A DNA stretch of 64,000 nucleotides from Parvicella tangerina (GTDB lineage: Bacteria > Bacteroidota > Bacteroidia > Flavobacteriales_D > Parvicellaceae): the NCBI RefSeq assembly GCF_907165195.1, contig NZ_OU015584.1:930001-994000 (forward strand), given 5' to 3'. The position numbers were made by a program, and so were the translations under genes. A model generated the notes under the pieces. The model was not told where the DNA came from and did not search any database. It saw only the letters and a program-made list of their open reading frames with translations. Shown in pieces: positions 50,101 through 64,000 of the stretch. The stretch's first letter is position 1. Each line of letters opens with the position of its first letter.

Positions 50101-50627
50101 TTATCATTAGCAGGAGGAGTTCCTTCGTTCGTAGTTACTTCATAGGTTCCGGTTCCACCGTTATAATCCCAAATTCTTACCCAATAAGTAGCCCCTGGAG
50201 TCAAACCAGTTTGATTGATGTAAGCATCTAAACCTGTACCTCCGTCATCATCACAAGTTATGAGAGAGACACTTCCACAAGGACCAGAATATAAACCAAT
50301 CACAGGGTCGCCAGAAACGATTGCTGCGTAAACGTCAACCACACCAGCGGCATCAGCAGTAGTCGTAAACCACCCATCATAATCTTGAGATCCTCCAGAG
50401 TTTCCCAATGTTCCGGCTGTCAAATCACTTCCAACCGAGGAGCAACCTGTTCCTCCATTCTCAGTAGTTGGATCTGTAATTCCCGAGTTTGTAAAGCCGC
50501 TTGTCAGGTTAACTGTATTCGCTGCACAGGCAGTTGGTAAAGCCCCAGAAGCACAAGGGGTTGATGCAAACTGCCCAAAAGAGTTCAGGGCAATACAAAT
50601 TAACGTAAATGTATATAATGATTTCAT
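41196..50627 (-). CDS. Giant repeat-rich surface protein with T9SS type B (gliding motility-associated) sorting domain
   Basis: 3,143 residues. Signal peptide (cleavage near 'ALNSFGQ'). Two N-terminal beta-sandwich modules resemble pre-peptidase C-terminal domains (about 60-170 and 172-305; 'GDPVIGLYSGPCGSVSLITCDDD', 'CASATGLTL...NNVWYSFTT'). A mixed region and seven 85-residue Ig-like repeats follow (residues 1083-1677). Next come four ~85-residue repeats of the 'DPEVCADAN...GTGQWYTG' type, then many Ig-like units with the 'TYNWYSDAGLTT..GTP' motif. A PKD domain (about 2975-3050) precedes the type B sorting domain (3053-3143, 'NIFSPNGDGNNDVW', 'NRWGQVMF', 'GTYYYIIEA'). Conserved Cys and Asp/Gly pairs suggest disulfides and possible Ca2+ binding. 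An adhesin or surface-layer role is inferred. A small secreted protein gene lies 19 bases upstream. Confidence 0.9.
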   Translation of the reverse strand: MKSLYTFTLICIALNSFGQFASTPCASGALPTACAANTVNLTSGFTNSGITDPTTENGGTGCSSVGSDLTAGTLGNSGGSQDYDGWFTTTADAAGVVDVYAAIVSGDPVIGLYSGPCGSVSLITCDDDGGTGLDAYINQTGLTPGATYWVRIWDYNGGTGTYEVTTNEGTPPANDNCASATGLTLNAAGISGTTYCATVETSDWNDCESNTENNVWYSFTTSVDGDITVNVTSVDCFGSGAGVDVTVFAGNCGSFSSYGCAPVAAGGSGSIPQFNGPAGTYYVMIDGDNSGGATALCDFDVDVDFVGCTADAGTNTSPALINNCFGTDVTTVSATGTSNTYLGADPCIGWGYWVASDPLGVYTGMTNIGDLPTGNNPAGSGGDPNFTGVWTSISYPLANGENPTLPSEGNGVTYYIAPITLSNCQTGEINSGCFDIGTPTQIYFNPEIVYTTVIDCDNAGTPTTQVAIAIGGGLPSVDGSNFTLTNLGAGTLSSTTVADGGTVTVTGVPDGGTVSILVTDGVGCTETITLSAIDASAYCPACAVDAGTVTETLTGSGSSSGIQHILCFGDQLDIIHNNDYTLPADLNFCGDPPGASTFNASEPGSCNPGIVYGIFTDLAATANPFNDPAFTLYGFVGEDQTFVNDGGLIASLTTTGIANGWSLTNNTFYLYPVTADVTDIDLNGDGFLNWHEDIDGDGCLDSGSPIAVTMLNEIIATVDDNCDGPNITITGGYPEFFPGNYTITNNGSGTITGIPVTHGETITITGLNDGDSYDIDITDGNGCSINLTGTYNFTQPTVTISNLATDFCVGDPVDNFDATFSQADVCYSETQHIYGSEIDQTFTVSFAGAPANVTSGTITVTAFGDLGLTSEYWTIDNESGGSTDIGNSAGTDCSGTFSGSNALSAANLTTWSADNQIDFDLTGSVDVNPFLCGGDYVEVTLEVCESPTITLSGFNVTDNGSGNGDFSPTSVGTANVTANATAGGCTYRDVVAVTVHEVPVLASTTDPEICAGETILLSDYTPGEANGVAGTGTWYTDPGFTTAASTSAITPSNGDQFYYQYVTTAGSCSDDASITVTVNPLPTASAVTPVVIDCNSVGGEETLDGSTSTAAMNYNWVATAGGNIVSGGSTTTPVVDAAGTYTLTVTNPTTTCSADAVVTVTEDLTAPTASAVSPVVIDCNSVGGEETLDGSASTAAMNYNWVATAGGNIVSGGSTTTPTVDAAGTYTLTVTDPSNGCSADAVVTVTEDLTAPTASAVSPVVIDCNSVGGEETLDGSASTAAMNYNWVATAGGNIVSGGSTTTPVVDAAGTYTLTVTDPSNGCSADAVVTVTEDLTAPTASAVSPVVIDCNSVGGEETLDGSASTAAMNYNWVATAGGNIVSGGSTTTPVVDAAGTYTLTVTDPSNGCTADAVVTVTENTTAPTASAVTPVVIDCNSVGGEETLDGSASTAAMNYNWVATAGGNIVSGGSTTTPVVDAAGTYTLTVTDPSNGCSADAVVTVTEDLTAPTASAVSPVVIDCNSVGGEETLDGSASTAAMNYNWVATAGGNIVSGGSTTTPVVDAAGTYTLTVTDPSNGCSADAVVTVTEDLTAPTASAVSPVVIDCNSVGGEETLDGSASTAGMNYNWVATAGGNIVSGGSTTTPVVDAAGTYTLTVTDPSNGCSADAVVTVTEETTLPILSAVTDPEVCADANSINLGSLTPTVTNGVAGTGQWYTGTDNTGTPVSGSQTGLSDGDQFYYEFTSTAGSCTDDVTITVTVNPVPVLSAVSDPAVCADANTIDLSTLTPTETAGVAGTGQWYTGTDNTGTAVSGVQTVNNGDQFYYEYTSTTGSCTDDVTITVTVNPVPVLGSVTDPSVCADANSIDLSTLTPTETAGVPGTGQWYTGTDNTGTPVSGVQSGLTDGDQFYYEYTSTAGSCTDGHILTVTVNPLPVLSTVTDPEVCADANTIDLTALTPSETAGVAGSGQWYAGTSNTDPAVSGVQTVNDGDQFYYEYTATTGGCTDDLTITVTVNPLPTANDQSAPGACEDVTGGGTIAGIDLTSYEPSVNGGAGITYNWYSDAGLTSPVATPTSVTVADADVYYVEVVDGTTGCSDVAQVDFTVYSIPTVSNLTPSICEDVLGSGQTAGVNLTGNNPSINGGGGLTYTWYTDAGLTSPVGTPTSATVNNNDIFYVEVDNGNCQDVATVTYSVTSTITLTDPNPQVCEDVAGGGTYAGYDLTSINNSVYSGGGSTTYTWYESDMSTLVATPTNITLSDGDQYYVDIADGNCSNAIMVNFNVNALPTMTPVADLELCDEGSSMATFDLTTAESGVNAIGPNYYWFSDAGLTTSIGAPGSYSSASGTVYVQVEDANGCLNDIGVNLVVNPLPTATTTSIEECNQGSNQATFDLTSVESTVDGGAGNTINWYSDAVLATPIATPSAYQSVSTTVYAEVVDGNTCSSSVGVTLTVNPLPTATDQNPAGVCEDTPGGGTATIDLTSYEGGINGGAGVTINWYSDATLSTAVGTPTSESAPNGAIYYAQVIDNITLCEDTAEVTITVLSAPTATDITPSLCEDVLGSGQTSNVDLTANNTNINSSAGLTFTWYEDAGLTTLVGTPTAATVNDADDFYVEVSNGNCTSVAQVDYAVTSTITLNDPLPEECESTFGTGQFTGYDLTSLNNSVYSGSGSTVYTWYESDMVTPVVGSNNILLNDGDQYYLEVVDGNCSNTIMITFTVNPLPTMNAVSGLELCDDGTGQATFDLSAEESNINGTGPTYNWYSDAGLTTSIGTPGAYTSGTSTAYLEVTDANGCSNSIGLDLTVNPLPTATTTSSDICDDGTGQATFDLTSLESTVDGGSGNTVNWFTDSGLTSSITTPGSYTSASTTVYAEVTDPSTGCTNSVDVNLNVTAAPSAPVLSNDTSYCEDDPISDLTANGAGGTITWYSDAALTNQVGTGSSFTPTPAGTGSTTYYVVETQGSCVSEVDSVIVTVNPNPVASFTTNTTNGNVPLEVEFTNTSVGTGLTYAWDFGNGATSSDTDPTNTFDELGNYTTVLYVEDNNGCSDTASILITVAGESVLIVPNIFSPNGDGNNDVWNVEGTNITEINGTIMNRWGQVMFMFDLLEMGWDGRTNAGLEASEGTYYYIIEAVGQDGTVYNYQGPFQLVR
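44588..45594 (-). repeat. Four tandem ~84-85-codon repeats in the giant surface gene
   Basis: Each unit carries a DP-x-VCAD-AN motif, then 'GTGQWY-TGT-NT' and 'GDQFYYE-TSTTGSCTDD'. The boundaries are approximate. The units are less alike in DNA than the seven repeats beside them. Confidence 0.75.
45597..47381 (-). repeat. Seven tandem 255-bp repeats in the giant surface gene
   Basis: 1,785 bases, exactly 7 x 255. Each unit encodes 85 residues with 'VVIDCNSVGGEETLDGS', 'NYNWVATAGGNIVSGG' and 'DAAGTYTLTVT'. Long stretches such as the one around 'ggagaaacagcacttgcgg' recur identically at 255-base intervals. Most differences are synonymous. Confidence 0.93.
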
Positions 50628-52070: not shown

Positions 52071-55000
52071 TTATCTTACCAATTCAAATGGACCTTGATA
52101 GTTATACTCAACACCATCAGCACCAACGGCATCGATAATATAGAAATAAGTGCCAGATGTCGCTTCAGCACCTGAAATCGTTCTACCGTCCCATCCAGCA
52201 CCAATTGCATCAAACTCATAGATGATTTGTCCCCATCTGTTAAAAATTGTTCCAGTCACCTCACTAATATTGGTTCCTTGCAAGGTAAACACATCGTTGT
52301 CACCATCGCCATTTGGAGAAAAGATATTAGGTATGATTAAAACTGATTCTCCAGCAGCAGTAACGACTAATGTATCGCTATCAGAGCAGCCATTAGCATC
52401 AGTTACAACGAGGACTACGTTGTAAGTGCCCATTTCTGTAAACGTATTAGATGGGTTTTGCTGTGTGCTTGTATTACTGTCATCAAAGTCCCAACTGTAC
52501 GAGAGGTTTACCCCTGTTGAATTATCCGTAAAGTCAACATTCAAAGGAATATTTCCAGAAGTTGGAGTGCCATTGAAAGAAGCTGTTGGACCAACTGCGT
52601 CAACAACAGATACTGAAGCAGTTGAATTACATCCATTATCGTTCGTAACCGTTAACGTGTAGTTTCCTGAAGTAGTAACTGATGTAGAGTTAGAAGAAGC
52701 TCCATCAGACCATAGGTAAGTCTCATTAATGCCTGTGGTACCAGAAGCATCTAGAACTACGGGGGTTCCCTGACAGTCTAAGCTATCAGGTGTAGCTATC
52801 ACAACCATTGGGCTAACTGTATCCATTGAAACAGAAACTTGATCAGTGTCTGTACAGCCATTATCGCTAGTTACGGTTAGATCATAATCTCCAGCTCCCG
52901 AAACTGTTGCGCTTCCATTAGACTGACTGTCTATTGTGCCAGTTGATGTTGTCCAGTTATAGGTAAGGTTTGTTCCACTTGAGTTTGTTCCGTCAAGGTT
53001 TACTACCAAACCAGAATTACATGTTATTACAGTGTCCAATCCAGCGTCTGCCGTTGGGCTGATTGTATCAGTAAGTACCGAAACGGTTGAAGTAGCTGTA
53101 CAGCTGTTAGATGTATTGGTAACCGTTAAAGTGTACGACCCTTCTTGGTCAACAGAAGGTGATGTTGTTGTGCCTCCTGTAATCGTGCCGCTCCCTGAAG
53201 TTGACCATGAGTAGTTAATATTAGCACCGCTGTCAGAACCAGAACCATCAAGTACAACATTCCATGGTAAATCGTTACAAGTTACCGTAATATCTGATCC
53301 TGCATCCGCTACGGGAGCATTCAGGTCAGGAACTACATCCACGTCATCAGTGTCAGTACAGCCGTTTGAACCAGTAACTGTAAGGGTATATGTTCCTGTT
53401 GCATCAACATCTGGGTTGGGACTTGTTCCATTCGTAATGGTACCAGGTCCGCTCCAATTGTAAGAAATTCCAGTTCCAGTTGATCCAGACCCATCAAGAG
53501 CTACCGTTGTCACGCCACAAGGGAAATCAATGTCAATGCCTCCATCCGCAACTGGACTTACTGTGTCCATAGTAACCGTGATGTCTGCAAAATCAGAACA
53601 GCCATTGCTCGTATTCAAAACAGTAAGGGTATAAGTGTCAGCAGTACTTGTGGAATCTGTATCAGCACTTCCAGCTCCTAGAATTGTCCCAGAACCACCA
53701 TCTGTCCAGGTGTAGGTGAAATTAGCTCCCTGATCTGAAGCAGAACCATCTAATGTTACTATCGGGTTGTTACAATCTACAACTAATGGTCCGTTAACCC
53801 CAACAGAAGGAGTTGTAATATCTTGAGAAACAATAACTGACGTACTATTAGTACAAGAGTTTGAGGTGTTGGTCACAATCAAGGTATAAGTGTCTGGAGA
53901 GGAAACACCTAGAGTTGAACTTGAACCAATGGTTGAACTTGTTCCATCTTGCCACTCATAGGATAAGCTGCTTCCCAATGAGGTTGAACCATCGAGAGTA
54001 ATCGATGTAGTTGCACAAGTCAATGTTGCGTTGCCAGTAATAATAGCAGTTGGCACGCTTGCATCAGCGGTAACTGTTACAGTTTGTGTGTCAGTACACC
54101 CATTCGCTTGTGTTAGGGTCAATGTATAATCACCAGCAGCAGTAGCAGTGCAAGAAGCTCCAGTTGTGCTTCCAGAAATAACACCTCCATTACTAGCAGA
54201 CCAACTGTAAGTTAATCCCGTTGTGCCTCCAGAAGAATTTGTGGAAGCCGAACCATCAACTGTCGTACTTGGTGTCACACAGTCAATTTGGGCTGGTGCA
54301 CCGATTGAAGCAGTTGGAGTTGAAAAGTCTTGCGTAACATCAGCATCATCCGTTGCCGAGCAACCATTAGTTGTATTCGTTACGGTTAATGTGTAAGTAC
54401 CTACTGCATCTACAGTAGCCGTGTTTGTGCTACTACCAGATACAATGTTACCACCTCCTGTTGTCCAGTTGTAGCTCATACCAGCAGATGATCCAGAACC
54501 ATCTAGTATTTCTTGACCAGCCGCAGAATTACAATCAATTATAGCATCAGCACCAGCATCCGCAGTAGGTGCGACTAAGTCTTCTGTTACCGTTGCATCG
54601 TCAGTAGTTGAACAACCATTAGAAGGGTCTGTCACAGTAATTGTGTAGGTTCCAGCCGCATCCACAGTAGCCGTGTTTGTTCCTCCACCCGAAACGATGT
54701 TACCACCACCAGTAGACCAGCTATAGTTCATACCAGCAGTAGAGGCTGAGCCATCTAGTATTTCCTGACCAGCCGCAGAATTACAATCAATTATAGCATC
54801 AGCACCAGCATCCGCAGTAGGCGCAACTAAGTCCTCTGTTACGGTAGCATCGTCAGTAGCTGAACAACCATTAGAAGGGTCTGTCACAGTAATTGTGTAG
54901 GTTCCAGCCGCATCCACAGTAGCTGTGTTTGTTCCTCCACCCGAAACGATATTACCACCACCAGTAGACCAGCTATAGTTCATTCCTGCAGTAGAGGCTG

Positions 55001-57566
55001 AGCCATCAAGTGTTTCTTGACCAGCCGCAGAATTACAATCAATAATGACATCAGCACCAGCATCCGCAGTAGGCGCGACTAAGTCTTCTGTCACCGTTGC
55101 ATCGTCAGTAGCTGAACAACCATTAGAAGGATCTGTCACAGTAATTGTGTAGGTTCCAGCCGCATCCACAGTAGCCGTGTTTGTTCCTCCACCCGAAACG
55201 ATATTACCACCACCAGTAGACCAGCTATAGTTCATTCCTGCAGTAGAGCCCGAACCATCAAGAGTTTCTTCTCCACCCACACTGTTACAGTCAATGACCA
55301 CATCAGCACCAGCATCCGCAGTTGGATCTGTATTATCTACCGTTACAGTAACAGCGTCTGTTGCACTACATGAAGGCATAGAAGCATAAGAAGTGGTTAC
55401 CGTATACGTAGTTGTTGAAGTTGGGTTAGCATTTGGGTTGGAAGCAGTTGATGAACTCAAACCAGTCGAGGGCGACCAAGAATAGTTCAGTCCAGCAGTG
55501 CTTGACGTTCCAATACCACTTCCTCCTAAGTTAGCTACACATGTAATCGTAAAAGGAGAACCGGCATCGGCAGCAGGCACAGCTAGGATTTCTATATCAA
55601 AGGTTTGTGCATCGGCACAACTTCCAGTACCTACAGTGTGTGTAACCGTATAGTTTCCAGGTGTACTTGCGTCCAGATCAATAGCACCAGTTGAGCTATT
55701 AATTGAAAGTCCAGCAGTAGATGAAAAAGTTCCTGTTGCAGAACCAGTCACGGTTGGGGTTGGGTCTGACGCACTAGCACAGTAAGTAGCCGATGCGTAG
55801 CTAAAAGAAGCGTCATGTGGAGAGTTCACCGTAACCGTTTGCACATCCGTTCCTGAACACCCAGCTGACGTAGACCAATTATATGTAATGTCACACGAAG
55901 CAGGGAAAGGACCGCTCACTGCTGAAGGGTCAAAAACTTCCGTTCCCCAATCCATCACATCAGAGAACGCAGTAGCACCAACTAACGTTGATGAGCCACA
56001 GGTAGAAGAAAAAGAAGATACACCACTTATTGTTCCAGACAAAGTTACGGTTGTGGTACCAGTCGACCCTACATTCCATGTACCAGAAGCTAGAAGAGCA
56101 TGTGTATGGCAATCTCTAACTTCATAAGGCATACTAGATCCCGTACTTGTGTTTGTTAATTCAATAGTGTGAGGATCATTCGGTGAAACCTGATAGAATG
56201 TATTTGTTGCAATCGTGTTTGCTGTTAACGTGTTTGTTCCCCAATAAGAAGCTCCATTTTCCAGAAGTGTTACCGTGTTTCCAGATTGAGCATTTACTGC
56301 ATCAATCACAATATAAACACACGGTGTCGTCAATGGATCATCTGCGCTTATAGCTACTGCTGCATCATCACAGTCCATGGTCGCTGGCAATCCACTGAAA
56401 GAAACTGGTGGATTGTAAGGTGTTACAGTGTAGGTTAACGTTGTTAGAGGCCCACACGCGCCAAGAACTTCAACCGTGTAGGTAGTGGTAGAACTTGGTG
56501 AAACTACTTGAGTGGCACCTGTTCCAATCAATGTTGCCCCATCATACCAGTTATAACCAGAAGGTGTTGAGCCTACTGTGTTTACCGATAATGTAGTGCT
56601 TTGGCCTGGACAAATGGTATCACCCGCAGTACTTTCTACGTCCAGAACGGCCACCCCGCCCAACGCAGTTACTTGATAATCGCAAACGTCACCAGCAAAA
56701 CCATCAATCATTAAGTAATAGGTTTGCCCAGTTGATAACCCAGTAAAACTGATAGGGTTGTTACCTGGATAGATCTGACCGAAGCAGTTCGAAGAGTTAT
56801 TGTTAGCGTACGTAAAGGAACTACAGTTCGTTGTTTCATAAAGCGCAAACTGTATACCATCTCCCACGTCACAATTTCCAACCAATACCTCTAAATCAAC
56901 ATTTGGTGAGGAGGCTTCAAACTGTAACCAGCTATTGTTTTCTACAGTACCACAGAATGGAGAAACGGACTGTGCCGAGTAGCAGGCTGAAGTTGTTCCA
57001 TAGTAGCCATCTAACGTACAAATAGGCGTAGCATTAGCACAAAGGTCAGAAGCTTCATTAAAGCCTTGCCCAGTAGTGTTACCAAATGTTACTGACCCCG
57101 TTGTGACATCAATATTACCTCCTGTACCTGCACCACTCACGCAAATCGACCAGGTTCCATTGGGATTTTGACCATTATTAATATTTTCATTCCAATTACA
57201 CCCTTCAGGTAGATATGTTCCTGCGAATGGAGCACTTCCGTTTTCTATACTGGTAGTAGCACTTGGAGAAAAGCAAGTATTGGAATAATCGTTTCCACTA
57301 GAACCATTTCCAGTACTCAGCGGAAAGTTAGTACCGTCTGGAGCAACGAGAGTAATATTTAGATTCGCATCAAAGTTGTGATTAATATCAATACAGGCTT
57401 GGGTCAAACCAAATGACCCACCAATACTGCCTGGTAGACCAGTAACTGTAATGTCAACACAGTCAGAACCACTATTGTTCACAACGAATCCAGATCCTGT
57501 GAATGTTTGAGCATGACTGATAAGTGAAACACTTATTAAGGAAATTAATAGTATAACTCTTTTCAT
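52071..57566 (-). CDS. Second giant PKD/Ig-repeat surface protein with T9SS type B sorting domain
   Basis: 1,831 residues. Signal peptide (cleavage after 'SLISHAQ'). An N-terminal proprotein-convertase P-like domain (about 25-160) is suggested by 'ITLVAPDGTNFPL' and 'NPNGTWSICVSGAG'. A PPC-like module follows (about 165-300, 'YYLMIDGFAGDVCDYQV'). Ig-like domains come next, including four 84-residue tandem repeats (748-1083) and a series of 'V.LDGS.S......Y.W......G.YTLTVT...GC' units. A PKD domain ('FNGTPTSGNIPLNVDFTDNS', 'YSWDFDDSN') and the type B sorting domain with 'NIFSPNGDGDNDVF' end the protein. The C-terminal ~90 residues are closely similar to those of the other giant protein. Likely surface-exposed; adhesion or gliding is inferred. 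Confidence 0.9.
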   Translation of the reverse strand: MKRVILLISLISVSLISHAQTFTGSGFVVNNSGSDCVDITVTGLPGSIGGSFGLTQACIDINHNFDANLNITLVAPDGTNFPLSTGNGSSGNDYSNTCFSPSATTSIENGSAPFAGTYLPEGCNWNENINNGQNPNGTWSICVSGAGTGGNIDVTTGSVTFGNTTGQGFNEASDLCANATPICTLDGYYGTTSACYSAQSVSPFCGTVENNSWLQFEASSPNVDLEVLVGNCDVGDGIQFALYETTNCSSFTYANNNSSNCFGQIYPGNNPISFTGLSTGQTYYLMIDGFAGDVCDYQVTALGGVAVLDVESTAGDTICPGQSTTLSVNTVGSTPSGYNWYDGATLIGTGATQVVSPSSTTTYTVEVLGACGPLTTLTYTVTPYNPPVSFSGLPATMDCDDAAVAISADDPLTTPCVYIVIDAVNAQSGNTVTLLENGASYWGTNTLTANTIATNTFYQVSPNDPHTIELTNTSTGSSMPYEVRDCHTHALLASGTWNVGSTGTTTVTLSGTISGVSSFSSTCGSSTLVGATAFSDVMDWGTEVFDPSAVSGPFPASCDITYNWSTSAGCSGTDVQTVTVNSPHDASFSYASATYCASASDPTPTVTGSATGTFSSTAGLSINSSTGAIDLDASTPGNYTVTHTVGTGSCADAQTFDIEILAVPAADAGSPFTITCVANLGGSGIGTSSTAGLNYSWSPSTGLSSSTASNPNANPTSTTTYTVTTSYASMPSCSATDAVTVTVDNTDPTADAGADVVIDCNSVGGEETLDGSGSTAGMNYSWSTGGGNIVSGGGTNTATVDAAGTYTITVTDPSNGCSATDDATVTEDLVAPTADAGADVIIDCNSAAGQETLDGSASTAGMNYSWSTGGGNIVSGGGTNTATVDAAGTYTITVTDPSNGCSATDDATVTEDLVAPTADAGADAIIDCNSAAGQEILDGSASTAGMNYSWSTGGGNIVSGGGTNTATVDAAGTYTITVTDPSNGCSTTDDATVTEDLVAPTADAGADAIIDCNSAAGQEILDGSGSSAGMSYNWTTGGGNIVSGSSTNTATVDAVGTYTLTVTNTTNGCSATDDADVTQDFSTPTASIGAPAQIDCVTPSTTVDGSASTNSSGGTTGLTYSWSASNGGVISGSTTGASCTATAAGDYTLTLTQANGCTDTQTVTVTADASVPTAIITGNATLTCATTSITLDGSTSLGSSLSYEWQDGTSSTIGSSSTLGVSSPDTYTLIVTNTSNSCTNSTSVIVSQDITTPSVGVNGPLVVDCNNPIVTLDGSASDQGANFTYTWTDGGSGTILGAGSADTDSTSTADTYTLTVLNTSNGCSDFADITVTMDTVSPVADGGIDIDFPCGVTTVALDGSGSTGTGISYNWSGPGTITNGTSPNPDVDATGTYTLTVTGSNGCTDTDDVDVVPDLNAPVADAGSDITVTCNDLPWNVVLDGSGSDSGANINYSWSTSGSGTITGGTTTSPSVDQEGSYTLTVTNTSNSCTATSTVSVLTDTISPTADAGLDTVITCNSGLVVNLDGTNSSGTNLTYNWTTSTGTIDSQSNGSATVSGAGDYDLTVTSDNGCTDTDQVSVSMDTVSPMVVIATPDSLDCQGTPVVLDASGTTGINETYLWSDGASSNSTSVTTSGNYTLTVTNDNGCNSTASVSVVDAVGPTASFNGTPTSGNIPLNVDFTDNSTGVNLSYSWDFDDSNTSTQQNPSNTFTEMGTYNVVLVVTDANGCSDSDTLVVTAAGESVLIIPNIFSPNGDGDNDVFTLQGTNISEVTGTIFNRWGQIIYEFDAIGAGWDGRTISGAEATSGTYFYIIDAVGADGVEYNYQGPFELVR
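54318..55325 (-). repeat. Four tandem 252-bp repeats in the second giant surface gene
   Basis: 1,008 bases, 4 x 252. Each unit encodes 84 residues with 'DCNS..G.E.LDGS.S.AGM.Y.W', 'NIVSG' and 'DA.GTYT.TVT'. They are clearly related to the 255-bp repeats of the neighbouring giant gene. Confidence 0.92.
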
Positions 57567-58384: not shown

Positions 58385-59422
58385 TTGAGAGATGTAAAGG
58401 AAATATCGTATGATTTTATACTATGTAAAGAAAGAACTGGAAGTTCATTTTTGACGGTTCAACTGAATAAATATGCTAATGTTCTGGCTGTAGCGGAAGA
58501 GACTTTTTCACTTTATCTTGCACCAAAGTACCAACTTGAGAAGACCTGGGAGATTTCTAGCAAGAGGAGGTTATACAATGATTTTTACACGATGAGAAAG
58601 AAAAATCTGAACCTTTTTTATTCTGAAAGGTCTGTAGGTCTTGATAATGTCTTGAATGAAAAAAGAAAGGACTTGACTTATCAAGATATGGTGAAGTTAA
58701 TCTTGCTCCAATTTTTTCCGGAGAAGAATAAAGAGGATATTTCGCACATCGTTGACAAACAAATTGATTACATGTTTCATATCGAAGATGTGATGAATGT
58801 TTTTCCGAAAGCAAAGTTCGTTGTTCTAACCCGCGACCCTAGGTCAAATGTTGAAGCTTGTATTCGTAGAAATTTGGGTAGAAAAGATGTTTACTATCAG
58901 GCTGAGCTCTGGAATACTTATTATCGTAAGGTCTTGCCGTTTTTGCAAGATGAACGTTTTATTTTTGTGAAGTACGAAGATCTTATTCTGAATACAAAAA
59001 AAGTTGTTCTATCGGTTTTGGATCATTTTGGGGTTAAGACGGATGCGAAAATTGATGACGATGTTTTTGAGAAAACCATAGGAAAGCGACAACAAAATGT
59101 GGAAGACGAGTTTAATAAGTCGTTTTCAGATTTTCATGCTGGATTATCACAAGAAGCTAATATCGATAAGCTGACCGAGTACAAAAACAGGCTCGCTACT
59201 CAAGAAATAAGAATCATTGAGTCCATCACTTCTGAATTTGCTTCTCAATTAGGTTATGAATTTGAAAAGGAGAAGTTGAGTAAAGAGGAGACACTCAAAT
59301 GGCAAAAGGCGAGCAAAGCTGTTTTTCGAGATAAAGATCGTTTGCTGAATTTCTATTTTAATTTACCCGTTTGGTTAAAGCTATTCATCAAGAAAATAAG
59401 AAAAAGCAGAGTGGATGTCTGA
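58385..59422 (+). CDS. Sulfotransferase-fold protein 1 (TTG start)
   Basis: 345 residues from TTG 58385, preceded by a strong GAAGGAG; a stop codon shortly upstream (58364-58366) rules out an in-frame ATG. The PAPS-binding loop is divergent: 'FILCKERTGSSFL' (about 11-23) stands where 'GxxRSGTTLL' is usual, but the spacing and the Ser are kept. The 3'-phosphate site 'KFVVLTRDPRSNVEACIRRN' (about 144-163; Arg150, Ser154) is well conserved. 'FIFVKYEDLILNTK' matches the later 'YE.L' strand. The C-terminus is a short hydrophobic-basic tail ('NLPVWLKLFIKKIRK'). It overlaps the next gene by 8 bases. Confidence 0.8.
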   Translation: MRDVKEISYDFILCKERTGSSFLTVQLNKYANVLAVAEETFSLYLAPKYQLEKTWEISSKRRLYNDFYTMRKKNLNLFYSERSVGLDNVLNEKRKDLTYQDMVKLILLQFFPEKNKEDISHIVDKQIDYMFHIEDVMNVFPKAKFVVLTRDPRSNVEACIRRNLGRKDVYYQAELWNTYYRKVLPFLQDERFIFVKYEDLILNTKKVVLSVLDHFGVKTDAKIDDDVFEKTIGKRQQNVEDEFNKSFSDFHAGLSQEANIDKLTEYKNRLATQEIRIIESITSEFASQLGYEFEKEKLSKEETLKWQKASKAVFRDKDRLLNFYFNLPVWLKLFIKKIRKSRVDV

Positions 59423-60377
59423 TCAAGAATTATCATACGATTTTATCATCGGTATCCCCAGAAGTGGAACAACTTTGCTAGGACTTAGGTTGAATCGTGT
59501 TCCTGGAGTTTTTTCAGCAATTGAAAACCGATTAATAGTAAACCTTCTCAAGGATTTTGAAAAGGGTAGAAGGGCTTTTGATAAGACAGCAGCTTACGTC
59601 AATAAAATAATGAGCGAGCAAAATAACTTCCCATTTACCATTGATCCCAAGATTAGGAATGTCTTGAAAGATTCTACCAACAAATCGCTAAAAGAACTTG
59701 CCATCGATTTAATGAGTTGTATTGAGTTTGATCACCGTGAGAATAAACCGTCATATCGCCATTTTATTGAAAAGAATCCAGGGTACTCATTGTTGTGGGC
59801 TAAATTGGTTAAGTATTTTCCTGAAGCAAAGTTTATTTGGATGACGCGAGATCCAAGGGCATTTGTAAACTCCAGACTAGAGAAGGTGAATCCTAAAAAC
59901 AGAGTGAATAACCCGTATTTTCTAGCTTATCTTTGGAATGAGTATCATCAGGAGTTTAACCGGTTGAAAAAAGAACATCAACATATTTTTGTCAATTATG
60001 AAAAGTTGGTCACAAACCCAGAAGATGAACTAATGCGTATTTTAACGTTTTTGAATTGGAATGTCTCTTATGATGTTAAACAGCTTCTTGAGAAAGATAA
60101 CTATTCAGATAATCTGGACTTAGTTGACCAAAGAAAGACGATTAAGTTTCGAGATCTTGACCAACAGATTAACGCTTCGCGTTTGAACTCATGGAAGGAA
60201 AGCTTACCCGATAGCTTATCAGCTGACATTGCTTATTTGTGCGTGAAGACAGCTTCAAGTGTAGGGTATCATCTGCCCAATAAATTGAGTTTATCAAGAA
60301 AAATTTGGTTAAGGTTAATAACGCTTCATTGGTATATTGGGGCTAAATTATTTGTTTTAATAAGTAAGGAAAGGTAG
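59415..60377 (+). CDS. Sulfotransferase-family protein 2
   Basis: 320 residues. It has the canonical PAPS loop 'IIGIPRSGTTLLGLRLN' (11-27) and 3'-phosphate site 'KFIWMTRDPRAFVNSRLEK' (about 139-157), plus 'IFVNYEKLVTNPEDEL', the Sulfotransfer_3 pattern. It should transfer sulfate from PAPS to a hydroxyl or amine. The substrate is unknown. It ends in a hydrophobic-basic tail ('IWLRLITLHWYIGAKLFVLI'). Its start lies within the end of gene 1, so the two are translationally coupled. Confidence 0.88.
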   Translation: MSDQELSYDFIIGIPRSGTTLLGLRLNRVPGVFSAIENRLIVNLLKDFEKGRRAFDKTAAYVNKIMSEQNNFPFTIDPKIRNVLKDSTNKSLKELAIDLMSCIEFDHRENKPSYRHFIEKNPGYSLLWAKLVKYFPEAKFIWMTRDPRAFVNSRLEKVNPKNRVNNPYFLAYLWNEYHQEFNRLKKEHQHIFVNYEKLVTNPEDELMRILTFLNWNVSYDVKQLLEKDNYSDNLDLVDQRKTIKFRDLDQQINASRLNSWKESLPDSLSADIAYLCVKTASSVGYHLPNKLSLSRKIWLRLITLHWYIGAKLFVLISKER

Positions 60378-60422
60378 CTTGTAGAGGGAATTTGTTGTTA
60401 AATGATCTTATGTTTTATTTCT

Positions 60423-60430
60423 TAGATTTG
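60423..60430 (+). promoter_or_regulatory. Possible -7 element for sulfotransferase 3
   Basis: TAGATTTG in the 101-base gap before 60479. No properly spaced TTG is seen, so read-through from the upstream pair is equally possible. Confidence 0.3.
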
Positions 60431-60478
60431 TTTCCCGTCAGATAGTTTTATCAAAAAGAAACTTGAAACCGTAGATTA

Positions 60479-61522
60479 ATGAATCGAGCATCTCAATCAT
60501 CCGAAAAAGAGAACCCTCAACTTGTCTTTGTTGTAGGGGCTGGTAGGTCGGGGACAACTCTTTTGATGAATATGCTGAACCAACATAGAAAAATCATTGC
60601 TCCGCCTGAACATGATTTTTTAATTACTGGTATTTATAAATTTGGTAAACGAAAGCAAATGTCTAGAAGTGACATTGCTAAGTTCGTTCGAAACATGTGG
60701 AATCGAAAGACGGAGTTTAAACCTATTTGGGGACTAGATGAACATGCTTTGATCGAATCACTCTTAACTGAGACAATTGATTTTAACGGGCTGTACCTCC
60801 AAACTATGTTAGCCTATCAGGAGGATAAGAAGCCTCAAGTAATTGTCGATAAAAATCCATTCTATACGGCTAATCTGGACTTGTTAAAAGCTCAATTCCC
60901 AGAAGCGAAGTTTGTTGGGATGGTAAGAGATGTACGAGACCGTTTAGTATCCATTAAAAGGAATGAAAGCAAGATTTTTAGAAACAATATTTTGCGCTCG
61001 GCCAAATGGAGTGAATTCAACAACGAAATCCTAAGGCTAAAGGAACAAGAGCCTTCCAAAGTTTTTTTGCTGAAGTATGAAAATCTCGTAACCAATCCTA
61101 AAGAGACGTTGGAGTCTTTATGTCGTTTTCTCGATTTAGATTATGAGGAGAGCATGATGACTTATCATCGAAACCCAAGAATGAAAGTGGAAGGTGAGAG
61201 CGCCTTGATAGACGGAATGAATAAGATGCATGAAAAGAGTAACAATCGTATTGACCCAAGTAAGATCGGTGAGTGGAGAGATCAATTGACCTTGACAGAG
61301 CAGAAGGATCTAACTTATTTTTGCGGAGATGTAGCTAAAAATCTTGGTTATACTGATTTTGTGTCGCTGTCTGAAGCAGATGAACGTTCGATTTTACGAA
61401 AGTATAGGTTTTCAATTCTGAAGGGTAAGACCTTGTGGAAATTAAAAAAGATGTCTTATCGTCTTCCATTGTGGATGCAGAGATTACTTTCTAAGTGGTA
61501 CAGAAAACTCTTAAACAAATAG
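60479..61522 (+). CDS. Sulfotransferase-family protein 3
   Basis: 347 residues. PAPS loop 'VFVVGAGRSGTTLLMNML' (about 16-33) and 3'-phosphate site 'KFVGMVRDVRDRLVSIKRN' (about 144-162). In the latter the usual 'RDPR' is 'RDVR', but the Arg and the Ser after it remain. 'VFLLKYENLVTNPKETL' follows. The tail is amphipathic and basic ('LPLWMQRLLSKWYRKLL'), very like the tail of gene 1. Its 3' end overlaps the convergent hydroxylase gene by 12 bases. Confidence 0.87.
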   Translation: MNRASQSSEKENPQLVFVVGAGRSGTTLLMNMLNQHRKIIAPPEHDFLITGIYKFGKRKQMSRSDIAKFVRNMWNRKTEFKPIWGLDEHALIESLLTETIDFNGLYLQTMLAYQEDKKPQVIVDKNPFYTANLDLLKAQFPEAKFVGMVRDVRDRLVSIKRNESKIFRNNILRSAKWSEFNNEILRLKEQEPSKVFLLKYENLVTNPKETLESLCRFLDLDYEESMMTYHRNPRMKVEGESALIDGMNKMHEKSNNRIDPSKIGEWRDQLTLTEQKDLTYFCGDVAKNLGYTDFVSLSEADERSILRKYRFSILKGKTLWKLKKMSYRLPLWMQRLLSKWYRKLLNK

Positions 61523-62269
61523 CTTAGAGAAAAAATTTCTTACGGGAACAATCATTCGCGCCCCCAGAATTGAAGTTTGATATAGTGCAAACTGAAAAGC
61601 TTTGGGAGTTTTATGTAAGAAAGGCATTTTAGATGCCGCACTCTGTAAAAAGAGACTCGCGAGGACTTTTGCGCAAACTGTTTTCTTTTTTTTGAGATAT
61701 TCCGGGCGAATAACATCGAAAAGGAGAATGAATCTTTGTTGATCAGAATTATTCCATGCGCGATGATGATGAGCATCACAAAAGAAAATTAGCTCACCTT
61801 CTTTCCAGCTTTTTTGTTCCTTTTCAACTTCAAACCCAACGTGAGGTAATTCTCCTGGAACAATTACTCCTAAATGACAGCGCATAACGGCATCAGTATC
61901 TCCGTAGTGGGGTAGAATCTCTGAATTTGCATCCAGCATGTTGAATGATGAACTGACTATACCAGGGATTTGATTAAGTACTTTAGTAGTAATTGGAGCT
62001 GCTTTCTGATTTTTGCGGAATTGTACACCCCAGGCGCTAAAAGGAATGGTTTTCCAACTGTTCTTTTTTGAAACAATATTCTGATCAAAATATGGCCAAA
62101 GCTCTTTATTCTCTTTAAGAAACTTCAATAGCTCTAACTTAATCTCTTCTGTGTGATCCATGACACTTTTTGACCAGTCATAATCAGCAGGATCAAAATA
62201 GGTTGGAGCTGAGCCTTTATAGCCATCTCTTTCAACGAAAGAGTAAAATATTTTTTTTCTCTCCTTCAT
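61511..62269 (-). CDS. Aspartyl/asparaginyl beta-hydroxylase-fold dioxygenase 1
   Basis: 252 residues. The Fe(II)/2-oxoglutarate core of the AspH/LpxO superfamily is complete: 'LPHYGDTDAVMRCHLGVIVPG' gives the first iron His (121) and the Arg130/His132 co-substrate pair. 'CDAHHHRAWN' gives the second iron His (169), and Arg179 lies in 'QQRFILLFDV'. The family includes protein (AspH) and lipid (LpxO, OlsC) hydroxylases. No signal peptide. The C-terminus (about 195-252) is a hydrophobic/basic extension after the core. Followed on the minus strand by nothing in the window; gene 2 precedes it by 2 bases. Confidence 0.87.
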   Translation of the reverse strand: MKERKKIFYSFVERDGYKGSAPTYFDPADYDWSKSVMDHTEEIKLELLKFLKENKELWPYFDQNIVSKKNSWKTIPFSAWGVQFRKNQKAAPITTKVLNQIPGIVSSSFNMLDANSEILPHYGDTDAVMRCHLGVIVPGELPHVGFEVEKEQKSWKEGELIFFCDAHHHRAWNNSDQQRFILLFDVIRPEYLKKKKTVCAKVLASLFLQSAASKMPFLHKTPKAFQFALYQTSILGARMIVPVRNFFSKLFV

Positions 62270-62271
62270 GA

Positions 62272-63042
62272 TTAGTCATGTTTAATAATAACTCCTCGTT
62301 TGCTTTGGTAGGGATGTATTAAGATAAGAATAAACTTGAAACACCAGAATACAATGCGATGAATAAACTTAGGTGCGCTTAGAAACCCTTTGATCTTACC
62401 GCCAAGCCATTGAAGTAAAAGAAAAGATCGGACATTAATACAAATCTCAAATTCATGTTCTAAAAACTCTTCTCTTAGCACATCAAATAAGAAAATCAAC
62501 CTGTCACCATTTGTGTGATTCCACCCAAGGTGTTCCTTTGCATCCAAAAAAATTAGGATTTCACCCTCTTTCCATGATTTCTGCTCTCCATTTACCTCAA
62601 ATCCTATTTCTGGCAACTCTCCTGGAATGTCGATGCCTAAATGACAACGAAAAATAGCATTTGTATCACCACTATGTCTGGAGAGATCTGCACCTGCTTT
62701 CAATATGTTGAAACTTGCACTTAAAATTTGCGGGTACTTATCGAGTATGTTTTTAATAGAGGGAGCCTTGTTTAGATTAAATGGGACATCAATTCCCCAG
62801 GTTTTAAAACCAAGCGTAGCCCACTGACTACCATCCGTGGAAACCGCATCAGAATAATAAGGAATTAACTTTCCATCTCTTTCTTTAAGGATGGCGAGTA
62901 ATTCCTTCTTTATTTGTTCTTTCTGAGCAGCAATGTCCCTTGCCCAATCGTATTCATTTTCATCAAAATAGTTAGGCTCATCTCCACTATAAGGAGGCAT
63001 CCAGTAGTTGTACCAAATTCTATTTTGTTTCTTATTTTTCAC
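62272..63042 (-). CDS. Aspartyl/asparaginyl beta-hydroxylase-fold dioxygenase 2
   Basis: 256 residues. It shares the plan and much sequence with gene 1: an N-terminal 'NYFDENEYDWARDI' block (gene 1 'TYFDPADYDWSKSV'), the core 'RHSGDTNAIFRCHLGIDIPGELPEIGF' (His123, Arg132, His134), 'DAKEHLGWN' (His171) and Arg181. The C-terminal tail (about 205-245) contains a strongly hydrophobic run ('IVFWCFKFILILI') that could insert into a membrane. Upstream gene of a two-gene operon with hydroxylase 1; 2 bases separate them. Confidence 0.87.
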   Translation of the reverse strand: MKNKKQNRIWYNYWMPPYSGDEPNYFDENEYDWARDIAAQKEQIKKELLAILKERDGKLIPYYSDAVSTDGSQWATLGFKTWGIDVPFNLNKAPSIKNILDKYPQILSASFNILKAGADLSRHSGDTNAIFRCHLGIDIPGELPEIGFEVNGEQKSWKEGEILIFLDAKEHLGWNHTNGDRLIFLFDVLREEFLEHEFEICINVRSFLLLQWLGGKIKGFLSAPKFIHRIVFWCFKFILILIHPYQSKRGVIIKHD

Positions 63043-63107
63043 GCTATCTGCAAGAAAGGTAATAATTATGAACGAACAAATGAGTTAAATCATTATTTTA
63101 GTGAGCA

Positions 63108-63764
63108 ATGTTTTATGAATCTTCTAAATATCCGTTCACAGCACAAATTTTGGCAAAGTATGACCAGATTAAAGAAGAAATGGAGCGAACGCTGGCTCTT
63201 CCGTTGCAGCAATTAGATCAAAATACCTGGGCGGGAGAAAGGCCTAATTATTTAACTTCTTCCTTTGATGCCAAGTTAGCTTGGAAGACTTATGTGTTTA
63301 AATATTTTGGTATCAACCACCGACCAAATCAGGAGGCTTGCCCAGTATTCTCTAAGCTTTTGGAAGAATTCCCATTTATCGCAACAGCAGAGTTTTCAAT
63401 GTTGGAACCGAACACCCATATTTTACCTCACAAAGGATTTACAGGTAAGGTGCTTAGGTCGCATCTTGGTATGGTTGTGCCAGAAGGAGATCTGGGAATC
63501 AGAGTGGGAAATGAAACAAGGAAATGGAAGGAAAAGGAGTGGCTAGTTTTTGATGATTCTATAGAGCATGAGGCATGGAATAAAACAGCTCAACGAAGAA
63601 TTGTGTTGATGATCGATTTTGATCCTGATCTTTCTGCTCAGAAAGTAAACAAAGTGTGTAAGGAAGTCTTAATGAAGACGAACGATAAGCACATGATGGA
63701 TATTGCTTCAAGAGAAGATTGGCTGAACTGGTTTGATAAAGGCGAATTTCCAAGAGATTTGTGA
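63108..63764 (+). CDS. Aspartyl/asparaginyl beta-hydroxylase-fold dioxygenase 3
   Basis: 218 residues, divergent from hydroxylase 2. It is the closest of the set to AspH: 'ILPHKGFTGKVLRSHLGMVVPE' (His108, Arg117, His119), 'VGNETRKWKEKEWLVFDDSIEHEAWN' (His154) and Arg164. It lacks the long hydrophobic tail of genes 1 and 2, ending soon after the core. It overlaps the next gene by one base (TGATG). Confidence 0.87.
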   Translation: MFYESSKYPFTAQILAKYDQIKEEMERTLALPLQQLDQNTWAGERPNYLTSSFDAKLAWKTYVFKYFGINHRPNQEACPVFSKLLEEFPFIATAEFSMLEPNTHILPHKGFTGKVLRSHLGMVVPEGDLGIRVGNETRKWKEKEWLVFDDSIEHEAWNKTAQRRIVLMIDFDPDLSAQKVNKVCKEVLMKTNDKHMMDIASREDWLNWFDKGEFPRDL

Positions 63765-64000
63765 TGGGTAGGAATTTTTATAATTTAGAACAGACTGAAT
63801 GGGCAAAGGAACTTGAGGCAAACTTTGAGGTTATTCGTGAGGAGATGATTTCCGTGCTGGAGAAGAACAAAGGCCATTGGGTTTCTCCTCATCCAGATTA
63901 TGTGCAAGGTGAGCAGTGGAGAACCTTTGAATTGGTTTTCTTTGGAATGAAACTCAACAAAAACTTAAATGAGTGTCCAAAGACGGCTGAATTGCTCACC
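63764..64000 (+). CDS. Probable aspartyl/asparaginyl beta-hydroxylase-fold dioxygenase 4 (3' truncated by the window)
   Basis: 79 codons are visible and the frame is still open at the window end. The start 'MGRNFYNLEQTEWAKELEANFEVIREEM' and 'WRTFELVFFGMKLNKNLNECPKTAELL' align with the pre-core region of hydroxylase 3 ('WKTYVFKYFGINHRPNQEACPVFSKLL'). The catalytic core lies outside the window, so the family call rests on this N-terminal match and on translational coupling to gene 3. Confidence 0.7.
   Translation, partial: MGRNFYNLEQTEWAKELEANFEVIREEMISVLEKNKGHWVSPHPDYVQGEQWRTFELVFFGMKLNKNLNECPKTAELLT

Follow-up and report, generated by a model that had tools for sequence, protein, structure and literature searches.

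Sulfotransferase and AspH-fold hydroxylase genes of Parvicella tangerina and their probable tailoring role in a putative surface-glycan locus found across Bacteroidia

The gene row and the adjoining opposite-strand block

The window, a 64,000-nucleotide stretch of Parvicella tangerina contig NZ_OU015584.1, ends in a row of three Sulfotransfer_3 genes (ST1-ST3) and four AspH-fold (PF05118) genes (HYD1-HYD4) that lie consecutively at positions 58385-64396 (Table 1). The sequence-only reading had listed three sulfotransferases and at least four AspH-type hydroxylases in a row, and profile searches agree with it. The window end cuts the HYD4 ORF at 64000, and its remainder was taken from the genome sequence. 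The 65-bp divergent gap between HYD2 and HYD3 likely contains putative promoters for HYD2-HYD1 and HYD3-HYD4. The GC content of the cluster (36-38%) is near that of the window (39.6%), so a recent transfer from a foreign source is not indicated.

Table 1. Features of the gene row and the adjoining block (positions count from the first base of the window; those above 64000 lie past its end)
Feature	Position	Strand	Remarks
ST1, sulfotransferase (Sulfotransfer_3), 345 aa	58385-59422	+	PF13469 E 1.8e-20; 8 bp overlap with ST2
ST2, sulfotransferase, 320 aa	59415-60377	+	PF13469 E 2.6e-25; PRSGT and RDPR motifs
ST3, sulfotransferase, 347 aa	60479-61522	+	PF13469 E 2.2e-35; 3' end overlaps convergent HYD1 by 12 bp
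HYD1, AspH-fold Fe/2OG hydroxylase, 252 aa	61511-62269	-	PF05118 E 3.8e-40; 2 bp to HYD2
HYD2, AspH-fold hydroxylase, 256 aa, GTG start	62272-63042	-	PF05118 E 4.1e-33
65-bp divergent intergenic gap	63043-63107	.	From gene coordinates
HYD3, AspH-fold hydroxylase, 218 aa	63108-63764	+	PF05118 E 7.1e-41; 4 bp overlap with HYD4
HYD4, AspH-fold hydroxylase, 211 aa	63761-64396	+	PF05118 E 3.7e-41; last 396 bases outside window
GNAT (N-acyltransferase)	64389-65018	-	Acetyltransf_3/_4, PseH-like
GT2, ArnC/GtrB-like glycosyltransferase	65015-65947	-	
SDR (ketoreductase, FabG-type)	65947-66696	-	
KASIII-2	66693-67739	-	
ACP (acyl carrier protein)	67736-67981	-	
KASIII-1	67983-68987	-	
GT-C membrane glycosyltransferase with TPR tail	68993-71494	-	

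The earlier remark that glycosyltransferase and polyketide-type genes are missing holds inside the window but not beyond it. Extension of the contig past 64 kb, a step proposed earlier, revealed a scaffold block of KASIII, ACP, KASIII, SDR, GT2, GNAT and GT-C genes on the opposite strand, which begins 389 bases after the window end and converges on HYD4. The KAS-ACP-KAS-reductase set retains its active residues, namely the KAS Cys-His-Asn triad (in 75/75 and 74/74 aligned sequences), the ACP Ser and the SDR YxxSK. In the profile scan, GNAT matched solely Acetyltransf_3/_4 and PseH, the latter with 64 bits and thus under the cut-off of 93.1, and gave no match to the OlsB-type or ornithine N-acyltransferase family. 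Among solved proteins, GtrB (E 2e-36) and ArnC (E 2e-29) lie nearest to GT2, whose score of 134.7 bits against the ArnC equivalog is far below the cut-off of 529.

Structural comparison of the GT-C model over residues 8-450 revealed similarity to STT3 (Z 20.7), Pmt4 (Z 18.9) and ArnT (Z 17.1), with an rmsd of 4.5-5, followed by a C-terminal TPR region. The GT-C half was revealed via alignment, since the top matches of Foldseek were TPR proteins alone. On the model and alignment, the protein groups with the GT-C superfamily, with a conserved DD at residues 43-44 as the acidic first loop. Its N-terminal 497 residues gave no TMTC/DUF1736 match in Pfam; the combination of GT-C and TPR equals the architecture of the TMTC O-mannosyltransferase.

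Active sites and relatives of the tailoring enzymes

HYD1-HYD4, the only PF05118 genes in the 3.98-Mb genome, all pass the full-domain profile, with 115-141 bits against a cut-off of 22.6. Each keeps the H-x-G...R-x-H...H...R active site, which in HYD3 reads H108-x-G110...R117-x-H119...H154...R164; among the aligned hydroxylases, the metal-binding His and the Gly are present in 76/76 and the 2OG-binding Arg in 75/76. HYD1, the one hydroxylase covered by the NCBIfam scan, matches best OlsC (114 bits, equivalog cut-off 450) and LpxO (70.1 bits, cut-off 500), but misses both cut-offs by far and was assigned to neither. It also aligns with the human AspH domain (E 1e-14), including both metal-ligand His residues and the H-x-G dyad. 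The four enzymes thus share with AspH, LpxO and OlsC the PF05118 fold family, the H-x-G...H metal dyad of human AspH and the conserved 2OG-binding Arg, but differ in the low LpxO/OlsC scores of HYD1, in having no TPR fusion as in AspH and in their linkage to sugar genes.

The sulfotransferases score 75-123 bits against the Sulfotransfer_3 profile (cut-off 27) and represent three of about nine such genes in the genome. The RDxR motif is present in all three, and the R-S-G-T loop is canonical in ST2 and ST3; ST1 has a variant first loop R-T-G-S (ERTGSS), with RDPR at residue 150. The AlphaFold2 model of ST3 (pLDDT 91.9) is nearest to the solved folds of TPST1/2 and the CurM/Ols sulfotransferases, and by sequence the closest PDB entry is the sulfotransferase domain of CurM (E 2.6e-20). 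As TPST1/2 rank level with CurM/Ols, the fold is indecisive on the substrate class. Compared to these closest solved relatives, which resemble ST3 in both sequence and fold, the genes here are stand-alone, lie in a glycosylation context and share only ~20% identity. By profile, motifs and fold, ST1-ST3 match PAPS-dependent sulfotransferases, a catalytic role that is predicted from these features, and an APS kinase for PAPS supply is encoded in the genome.

Recent tandem duplication of one hydroxylase was ruled out, since the paralogues are deep lineages with orthologues in other families; HYD2, for instance, is a separate old lineage with its own orthologues. Recent tandem copying of one sulfotransferase was likewise ruled out, the paralogues being ancient with orthologues elsewhere, and ST1 falls in a clade of its own that has orthologues outside the family.

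Conservation across Bacteroidia and related modules

The link between the two gene types had been staked on their co-occurrence elsewhere, which was indeed found. Among 396 Bacteroidia genomes, PF05118 and Sulfotransfer_3 genes lie within 15 kb of each other in 16, against 1.26 expected, which rules out chance clustering of common genes. In the same GTDB family, all five other PF05118-bearing genomes carry 2-4 hydroxylases beside 2-3 sulfotransferases. Of the 396 genomes, 33 have both GNAT and a hydroxylase (Fisher p 9e-26), and in 24 of these 33 the two genes lie side by side. Moreover, KAS2-SDR-GT2-GNAT is contiguous and co-directional in 55/59 cases from 80 named loci retrieved with the ACP. 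The locus, ~13 kb in length, is found in about one tenth of the sampled Bacteroidia genomes and in many families.

Among 47 loci with a GNAT and at least 5.5 kb of sequence past it, PF05118 is present in 33, a sulfotransferase in 33, Cupin_8 in 10 and GT-C in 31. Hydroxylase and sulfotransferase presence is uncorrelated in this set (27/11/6/3, rho 0.015), in counts that span ~10 kb on each side of the locus and miss more distant partner genes. The two gene types thus occur independently, and an obligate hydroxylate-then-sulfate order, as the sequence-only reading had envisaged, is not indicated. The composition varies further: Cupin_8/JmjC hydroxylases replace or accompany the AspH-fold enzymes in other genomes, several loci contain an MBOAT and SGNH pair, as for glycan O-acetylation, and in some loci the parts are divided between genome positions (G431, G267 and G324). 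Large T9SS type B (CHU_C) proteins, which a regex search located beside ~15 loci, were considered as glycan acceptors, but each genome has 28-69 such proteins, so this proximity is at chance level.

Three polysaccharide loci (L147, L148 and L149) contain homologous KAS/ACP/SDR modules next to genes for a PglD/NeuD/VioB sugar N-acyltransferase and a 4-aminotransferase, joined in two of these loci by a UDP-GlcNAc-4,6-dehydratase-type gene; this context suggests a hydroxyacylated amino sugar. PglD/NeuD-type acyltransferase and amino-sugar genes were found in these three loci only and are absent beside the present one, which has a GNAT instead. Across ~105 hydroxylase/sulfotransferase-type loci, a search for amino-sugar synthesis genes returned one aminotransferase, no dehydratases and no PglD, so that the amine-bearing acceptor of GNAT stays a proposal; DegT aminotransferases are encoded elsewhere in the P. 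tangerina genome.

Compared by gene type rather than by sequence, the same order of KAS, ACP, KAS, reductase and N-acyltransferase occurs in another member of the Bacteroidota, Flavobacterium psychrophilum, as wfpC-wfpG, which is predicted to place 3,5-dihydroxyhexanoyl on Qui2NAc4N; this acyl group was detected by NMR in the O-antigen (PMC6519341). Unlike the present locus, the wfp genes include a PglD-type acyltransferase and belong to a Wzy O-antigen locus that also has pglE/pglF; hydroxylases, sulfotransferases, an ArnC-like GT2 and a GT-C are not mentioned in the passages on it (PMC6519341). In the viosamine island of Pseudomonas syringae (vioS/acp/vioR/vioB), KAS III, ACP, reductase and N-acyltransferase also occur together, as part of a pathway to a modified amino sugar that needs vioR, but the island has a single KAS, feeds a flagellin glycan via VioT, and neither hydroxylases nor sulfotransferases are in its gene list (PMC3927599).

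Proposed pathway and alternative readings

What is observed at the locus is its gene content, order and conservation, along with intact active sites and a GT-C fold; homologous modules elsewhere occur in a setting of sugar N-acylation. We consider it rather probable that the seven genes serve as the tailoring part of a surface-glycan locus, conserved in Bacteroidia, that makes an acylated, hydroxylated and sulfated sugar. The locus as a whole probably builds this unusual sugar and mounts it on the Bacteroidota surface. We propose that the two KAS III, the dedicated ACP and the FabG-type reductase would produce a short hydroxyacyl-ACP, which by analogy may be 3,5-dihydroxyhexanoyl-ACP. The PseH-like GNAT would transfer the acyl group to the amino group of a nucleotide amino sugar, and the ArnC/GtrB-like GT2, judged from its family, would load the acyl sugar on polyprenyl phosphate. 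The AspH-fold hydroxylases, or elsewhere Cupin_8/JmjC enzymes, could then introduce extra hydroxyls, and the PAPS-dependent sulfotransferases could sulfate hydroxyls on the acyl chain or the sugar itself, with a separate position probable for each paralogue. After flipping, the GT-C/TPR enzyme would move the sugar to a secreted protein or glycan. A more specific version is tentative: a Bacteroidota-specific surface modification in which a polyprenyl-linked amino sugar with a polyhydroxyacyl amide might undergo position-specific AspH-/JmjC-fold hydroxylation and sulfation at several positions before attachment to secreted proteins by the TPR-bearing GT-C.

The earlier suggestion of an envelope lipid or a surface product as target survives in its second half, surface-product tailoring being the likeliest reading. 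On the lipid side, lipid A or an amino-acid lipid would be hydroxylated on its acyl chains in the manner of LpxO/OlsC and then sulfated at the new hydroxyls, with an OlsB-like GNAT and with GT2 and GT-C adding a sugar to lipid A. The model here is ArnC/ArnT, which transfer L-Ara4N to lipid A, and the locus indeed resembles ArnC/ArnT and GtrB/GT-C pairs in joining a GT2 with C-terminal membrane helices to a GT-C enzyme. The likeness of GT2 to ArnC, of GT-C to ArnT and of HYD1 to OlsC and LpxO is offset by GT2 and HYD1 scores far under the respective cut-offs, by a TPR-tailed GT-C whose fold is at least as close to STT3/PMT, and by a GNAT that matches Acetyltransf_3/PseH instead of an ornithine N-acyltransferase family. 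Moreover, the presence of two KAS III and an ACP of their own points to a short acyl group made for the purpose, and homologues of these proteins lie in polysaccharide loci with sugar N-acyltransferases. We regard a lipid product as unlikely, and less likely than an acyl amino sugar linked to polyprenyl phosphate.

The likeness of ST3 to CurM, together with the ACP and reductase of the locus, would also fit tailoring at the acyl stage, in which a beta-hydroxyacyl-ACP is sulfated in the CurM/Ols manner, or an acyl-ACP hydroxylated, to yield a sulfated short acyl or small molecule in place of a sulfated sugar. We consider this quite unlikely, as the peptide sulfotransferases TPST1/2 rank equally in the fold search, a thioesterase or decarboxylation partner was not seen, and GT2, GNAT and GT-C would be left without a role. 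Those same TPST folds, with the alignment of HYD1 to human AspH, raise the alternative that secreted proteins are hydroxylated at Asp/Asn and sulfated at Tyr or other hydroxyls beside a separate glycosylation locus. This is very unlikely: the direct adjacency of hydroxylase and GNAT noted above ties the hydroxylases to the genes for the acyl sugar, the secretory lumen is where AspH and TPST work but signal peptides are not evident on inspection of the short locus proteins, and no recurring peptide precursor gene was seen.

The surface-sugar reading places the locus beside LFG, the general O-glycosylation locus of Bacteroidota (metG, a wzx flippase and two conserved glycosyltransferases), which it resembles in phylum-specific surface glycosylation with Und-P-linked sugars; it differs in being confined to a minority of the sampled genomes and in its predicted sulfation, which the LFG review does not mention (PMC12871550). 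The GT-C is a candidate transferase in a phylum whose protein glycan transferases are reported to be undiscovered (PMC12871550). If the more specific version is true, sugars or their acyl groups would be among the substrates of AspH-fold enzymes, and the glycan modifications known from Bacteroidota would gain a sulfated glycan not so far listed among them. The larger locus, widely conserved, appears to be undescribed: in the literature we found no description of this gene combination, nor for the phylum of a surface sugar with sulfate, multiple extra hydroxyls and a designer acyl group such as the locus appears to make. An earlier mention of the neighbourhood may exist, for example in the survey that Iyer and colleagues made in 2010 of peptide-modifying dioxygenases, which may be relevant here.

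Through the locus, AspH-/JmjC-fold hydroxylases and bacterial sulfotransferases gain a shared, testable pathway context. Mesonia aquimarina and Haloflavibacter putidus carry this locus type and appear to be cultured strains, which opens it to testing.

Gene organization of the cluster and of the adjoining core block

Profile matches to Sulfotransfer_3 and PF05118 confirmed three sulfotransferases (ST1~ST3) and four AspH-type hydroxylases (HYD1~HYD4) at 58385-64396 in the coordinates of the window (G000:C1:930001-994000, from a single contig of 3,980,026 bases), and a search of the whole genome found no further PF05118 gene. The coordinates revealed dense packing across ST1~HYD4: ST1 and ST2 overlap by 8 bp, the convergent ST3 and HYD1 by 12 bp, and HYD3 and HYD4 by 4 bp; HYD1 and HYD2 are spaced by 2 bp, and HYD2 and HYD3 diverge around a 65-bp gap.

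The sequence-only reading had seen no scaffold enzymes nearby, which turned out to be a window-boundary effect, since a compact block starts just past the window end. In the genome sequence, HYD4 is convergent with this block, overlapping it by 8 bp, and the genes follow from HYD4 in the order GNAT, GT2, SDR, KAS III, ACP, another KAS III and, last, a membrane protein of 833 aa (GT-C). The nearest solved proteins to the GT2 are GtrB sll0501 (E 2e-36) and ArnC (E 2e-29). Residues 8-450 of the modeled membrane protein (pLDDT 88.6) resemble STT3 (Z 20.7, rmsd 4.6), Pmt4 (Z 18.9) and ArnT (Z 17.1), and its C-terminus is TPR.

Features of the cluster, the core block and neighboring or related genes
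Feature	Position	Strand	Remark
ST1~ST3, adjacent Sulfotransfer_3 genes	58385-61522	+	profile match
HYD1, PF05118	61511-62269	-	profile match
HYD2, PF05118	62272-63042	-	profile match
HYD3, PF05118	63108-63764	+	profile match
HYD4, PF05118	63761-64396	+	profile match; runs past window end
GNAT	past window end	-	PseH-like, 64 bits
GT2	past window end	-	best match ArnC, next PgfS
SDR	past window end	-	FabG-type
KAS III, two genes flanking ACP	past window end	-	family match
ACP	past window end	-	81 aa, motif W-G-S-M-H
Membrane protein (GT-C)	past window end	-	833 aa, last gene of block
Giant secreted protein	41196-50627	-	3143 aa
Giant secreted protein	52071-57566	-	1831 aa
AMP-ligase variant loci	L143:9199-14416, L145:12726-16915, L146:4-3410
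'AHIINPF...QPITF' gene	L143:16172-17104, L145:9493-10428, L146:6162-7160, L151:11355-12224, L152:11971-12840, L051:8114-9055

Conservation of the locus and its putative tailoring genes

PF05118 is present in 6 of the 39 genomes of the window's GTDB family, always as 2-4 neighboring genes adjoining 2-3 Sulfotransfer_3 genes (in G027 the sulfotransferases are spread across two small contigs), and members with sufficient contig also possess the KAS-ACP-KAS-SDR-GT2-GNAT block and GT-C. In a sample of 396 Bacteroidia genomes, 47 of those scanned for both families had a strong PF05118 match, and the co-occurrence recurs: Sulfotransfer_3 lies within 15 kb of PF05118 in 16 of the 47, versus 1.26 expected under random placement. 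The locus GNAT and a strong PF05118 match occur together in 33 genomes (GNAT alone 9, PF05118 alone 21; p 9e-26, inflated by kinship among genomes), as direct neighbors in 24 of the 33.

An ACP profile scan of GTDB representatives yielded 91 confirmed stretches, 80 of which were kept, from Flavobacteriales, Crocinitomicaceae, Vicingaceae, Chitinophagales, Saprospiraceae and other Bacteroidota, with two exceptions, a Saccharibacteria-labeled bin and an unplaced "bacterium" bin. The content of the Candidatus Saccharibacteria locus (L067) is that of the Bacteroidota cluster, so this contig is probably a binning error. KAS2-SDR-GT2-GNAT form an uninterrupted run on one strand in 55 of 59 loci. Forty-seven loci include the GNAT and 5.5 kb or more of sequence on its far side; PF05118 occurs in 33 of them, a sulfotransferase in 33, GT-C in 31 and Cupin_8 hydroxylases in 10.

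A fixed hydroxylate-then-sulfate pair, as previously proposed, was not borne out. Of these 47 loci, 27 have a hydroxylase (PF05118 or Cupin_8) and a sulfotransferase, 11 only the former, six only the latter and three neither, their presence thus being independent (Spearman 0.015); G043 and G101, for instance, lack any Sulfotransfer_3 match despite a GNAT with neighboring PF05118. The two enzyme types are therefore tailoring options on one core, and in the window's genome either order of hydroxylation and sulfation is possible.

The active sites are well preserved. Every aligned KAS (75/75 and 74/74) has the full Cys-His-Asn triad; the hydroxylases keep His-x-Gly, R-x-H and the second His in 76/76 and the 2OG Arg in 75/76, and pairwise alignment showed the same H-x-G dyad in human AspH. 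The hydroxylases form at least four old lineages and the sulfotransferases about five, each spanning several families, which suggests that the paralogues are position-specific rather than redundant.

Proposed pathway and related systems

The acyl block resembles known modules in its gene types. In Flavobacterium psychrophilum, wfpC, wfpD, wfpE, wfpF and wfpG encode KAS, ACP, KAS, reductase and acyltransferase; they are predicted to synthesize a 3,5-dihydroxyhexanoyl group, whose presence in the O-antigen NMR has established, and to attach it to UDP-Qui2NAc4N (PMC6519341). In P. syringae, vioS/acp/vioR/vioB are modified-viosamine pathway genes, and vioR mutants lose modified viosamine (PMC3927599). 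Three polysaccharide loci (L147~L149) contain KAS/ACP/SDR homologues whose neighbors are a PglD/NeuD/VioB N-acyltransferase, a LegC-type aminotransferase and, in addition, a UDP-GlcNAc-4,6-dehydratase-type gene in L147 and L148 (called in L147 by similarity to the L148 gene). Two KAS III and one reductase would fit two extension/reduction rounds, i.e., a 3,5-dihydroxyhexanoyl-like chain.

We propose that the acyl block would produce a hydroxyacyl-ACP, from which the GNAT might acylate a nucleotide amino sugar; GT2 would load the acylated sugar onto polyprenyl phosphate, hydroxylases and sulfotransferases would decorate the acyl or sugar, and GT-C would transfer the product outside the cell. 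The analysis itself shows which genes are present and conserved, that their active sites are intact, their folds, the context of homologues and an APS kinase (PAPS supply) encoded in the genome; all substrates, the step order and the acceptor are inferred. Weak points are the modest family scores of GNAT and GT2 and the lack of amino-sugar genes within the locus; DegT aminotransferases are encoded elsewhere in the genome. A second region of this genome, outside the window at G000:C1:1176000-1197000, combines weak Sulfotransfer_3 matches with a DegT aminotransferase and another ACP-like match, and is perhaps an O-antigen or EPS locus supplying the amino sugar.

The component parts are of known kinds, and literature searches for the whole gene combination found no description. 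A 2025 review of Bacteroidota O-glycans names acetyl, methyl, phosphate and other modifications, leaves sulfate unmentioned, and describes the OTase and ligase as undiscovered (PMC12871550). We file the locus as a variant akin to sugar-hydroxyacylation and polyprenyl-sugar transfer systems; that it represents a new class of surface modification seems less likely than not.

Locus variants and neighboring genes

Cupin_8/JmjC-fold hydroxylases, up to three consecutive (L138, L098), replace or join the AspH-fold ones in L098, L102, L116, L121, L123, L130 and L138, beside a polyketide-cyclase-like gene in L116, with a similar gene in L121. Several loci contain an MBOAT and SGNH pair. In one variant the locus additionally comprises an AMP-ligase, another ACP-like gene and a protein of 800-840 aa without family assignment; L143 also has an acyl-CoA dehydrogenase-like gene (by eye). 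A recurrent 290-330-aa gene starting like 'AHIINPF...QPITF' adjoins many such loci, and neither of the two members scanned had a Pfam match. In L046 (G267:C8:31001-51000), the run of hydroxylase/sulfotransferase genes is interrupted by a secreted protein of 1837 aa and a penicillin-binding-protein-like gene (782 aa); the GNAT is on the same contig at a distance of 280 kb, the ACP on a different one. The cluster sulfotransferase at L035:2604-3686 (G037) is split into two ORFs by an in-frame TGA, either a sequencing error or a decaying gene. Within the window, the two giant secreted proteins carry arrays of near-identical PKD-like repeats, with repeat sequence common to both proteins; the 1831-aa protein bears a sorting domain of T9SS type B (CHU_C), which the end of the 3143-aa protein closely resembles in sequence.
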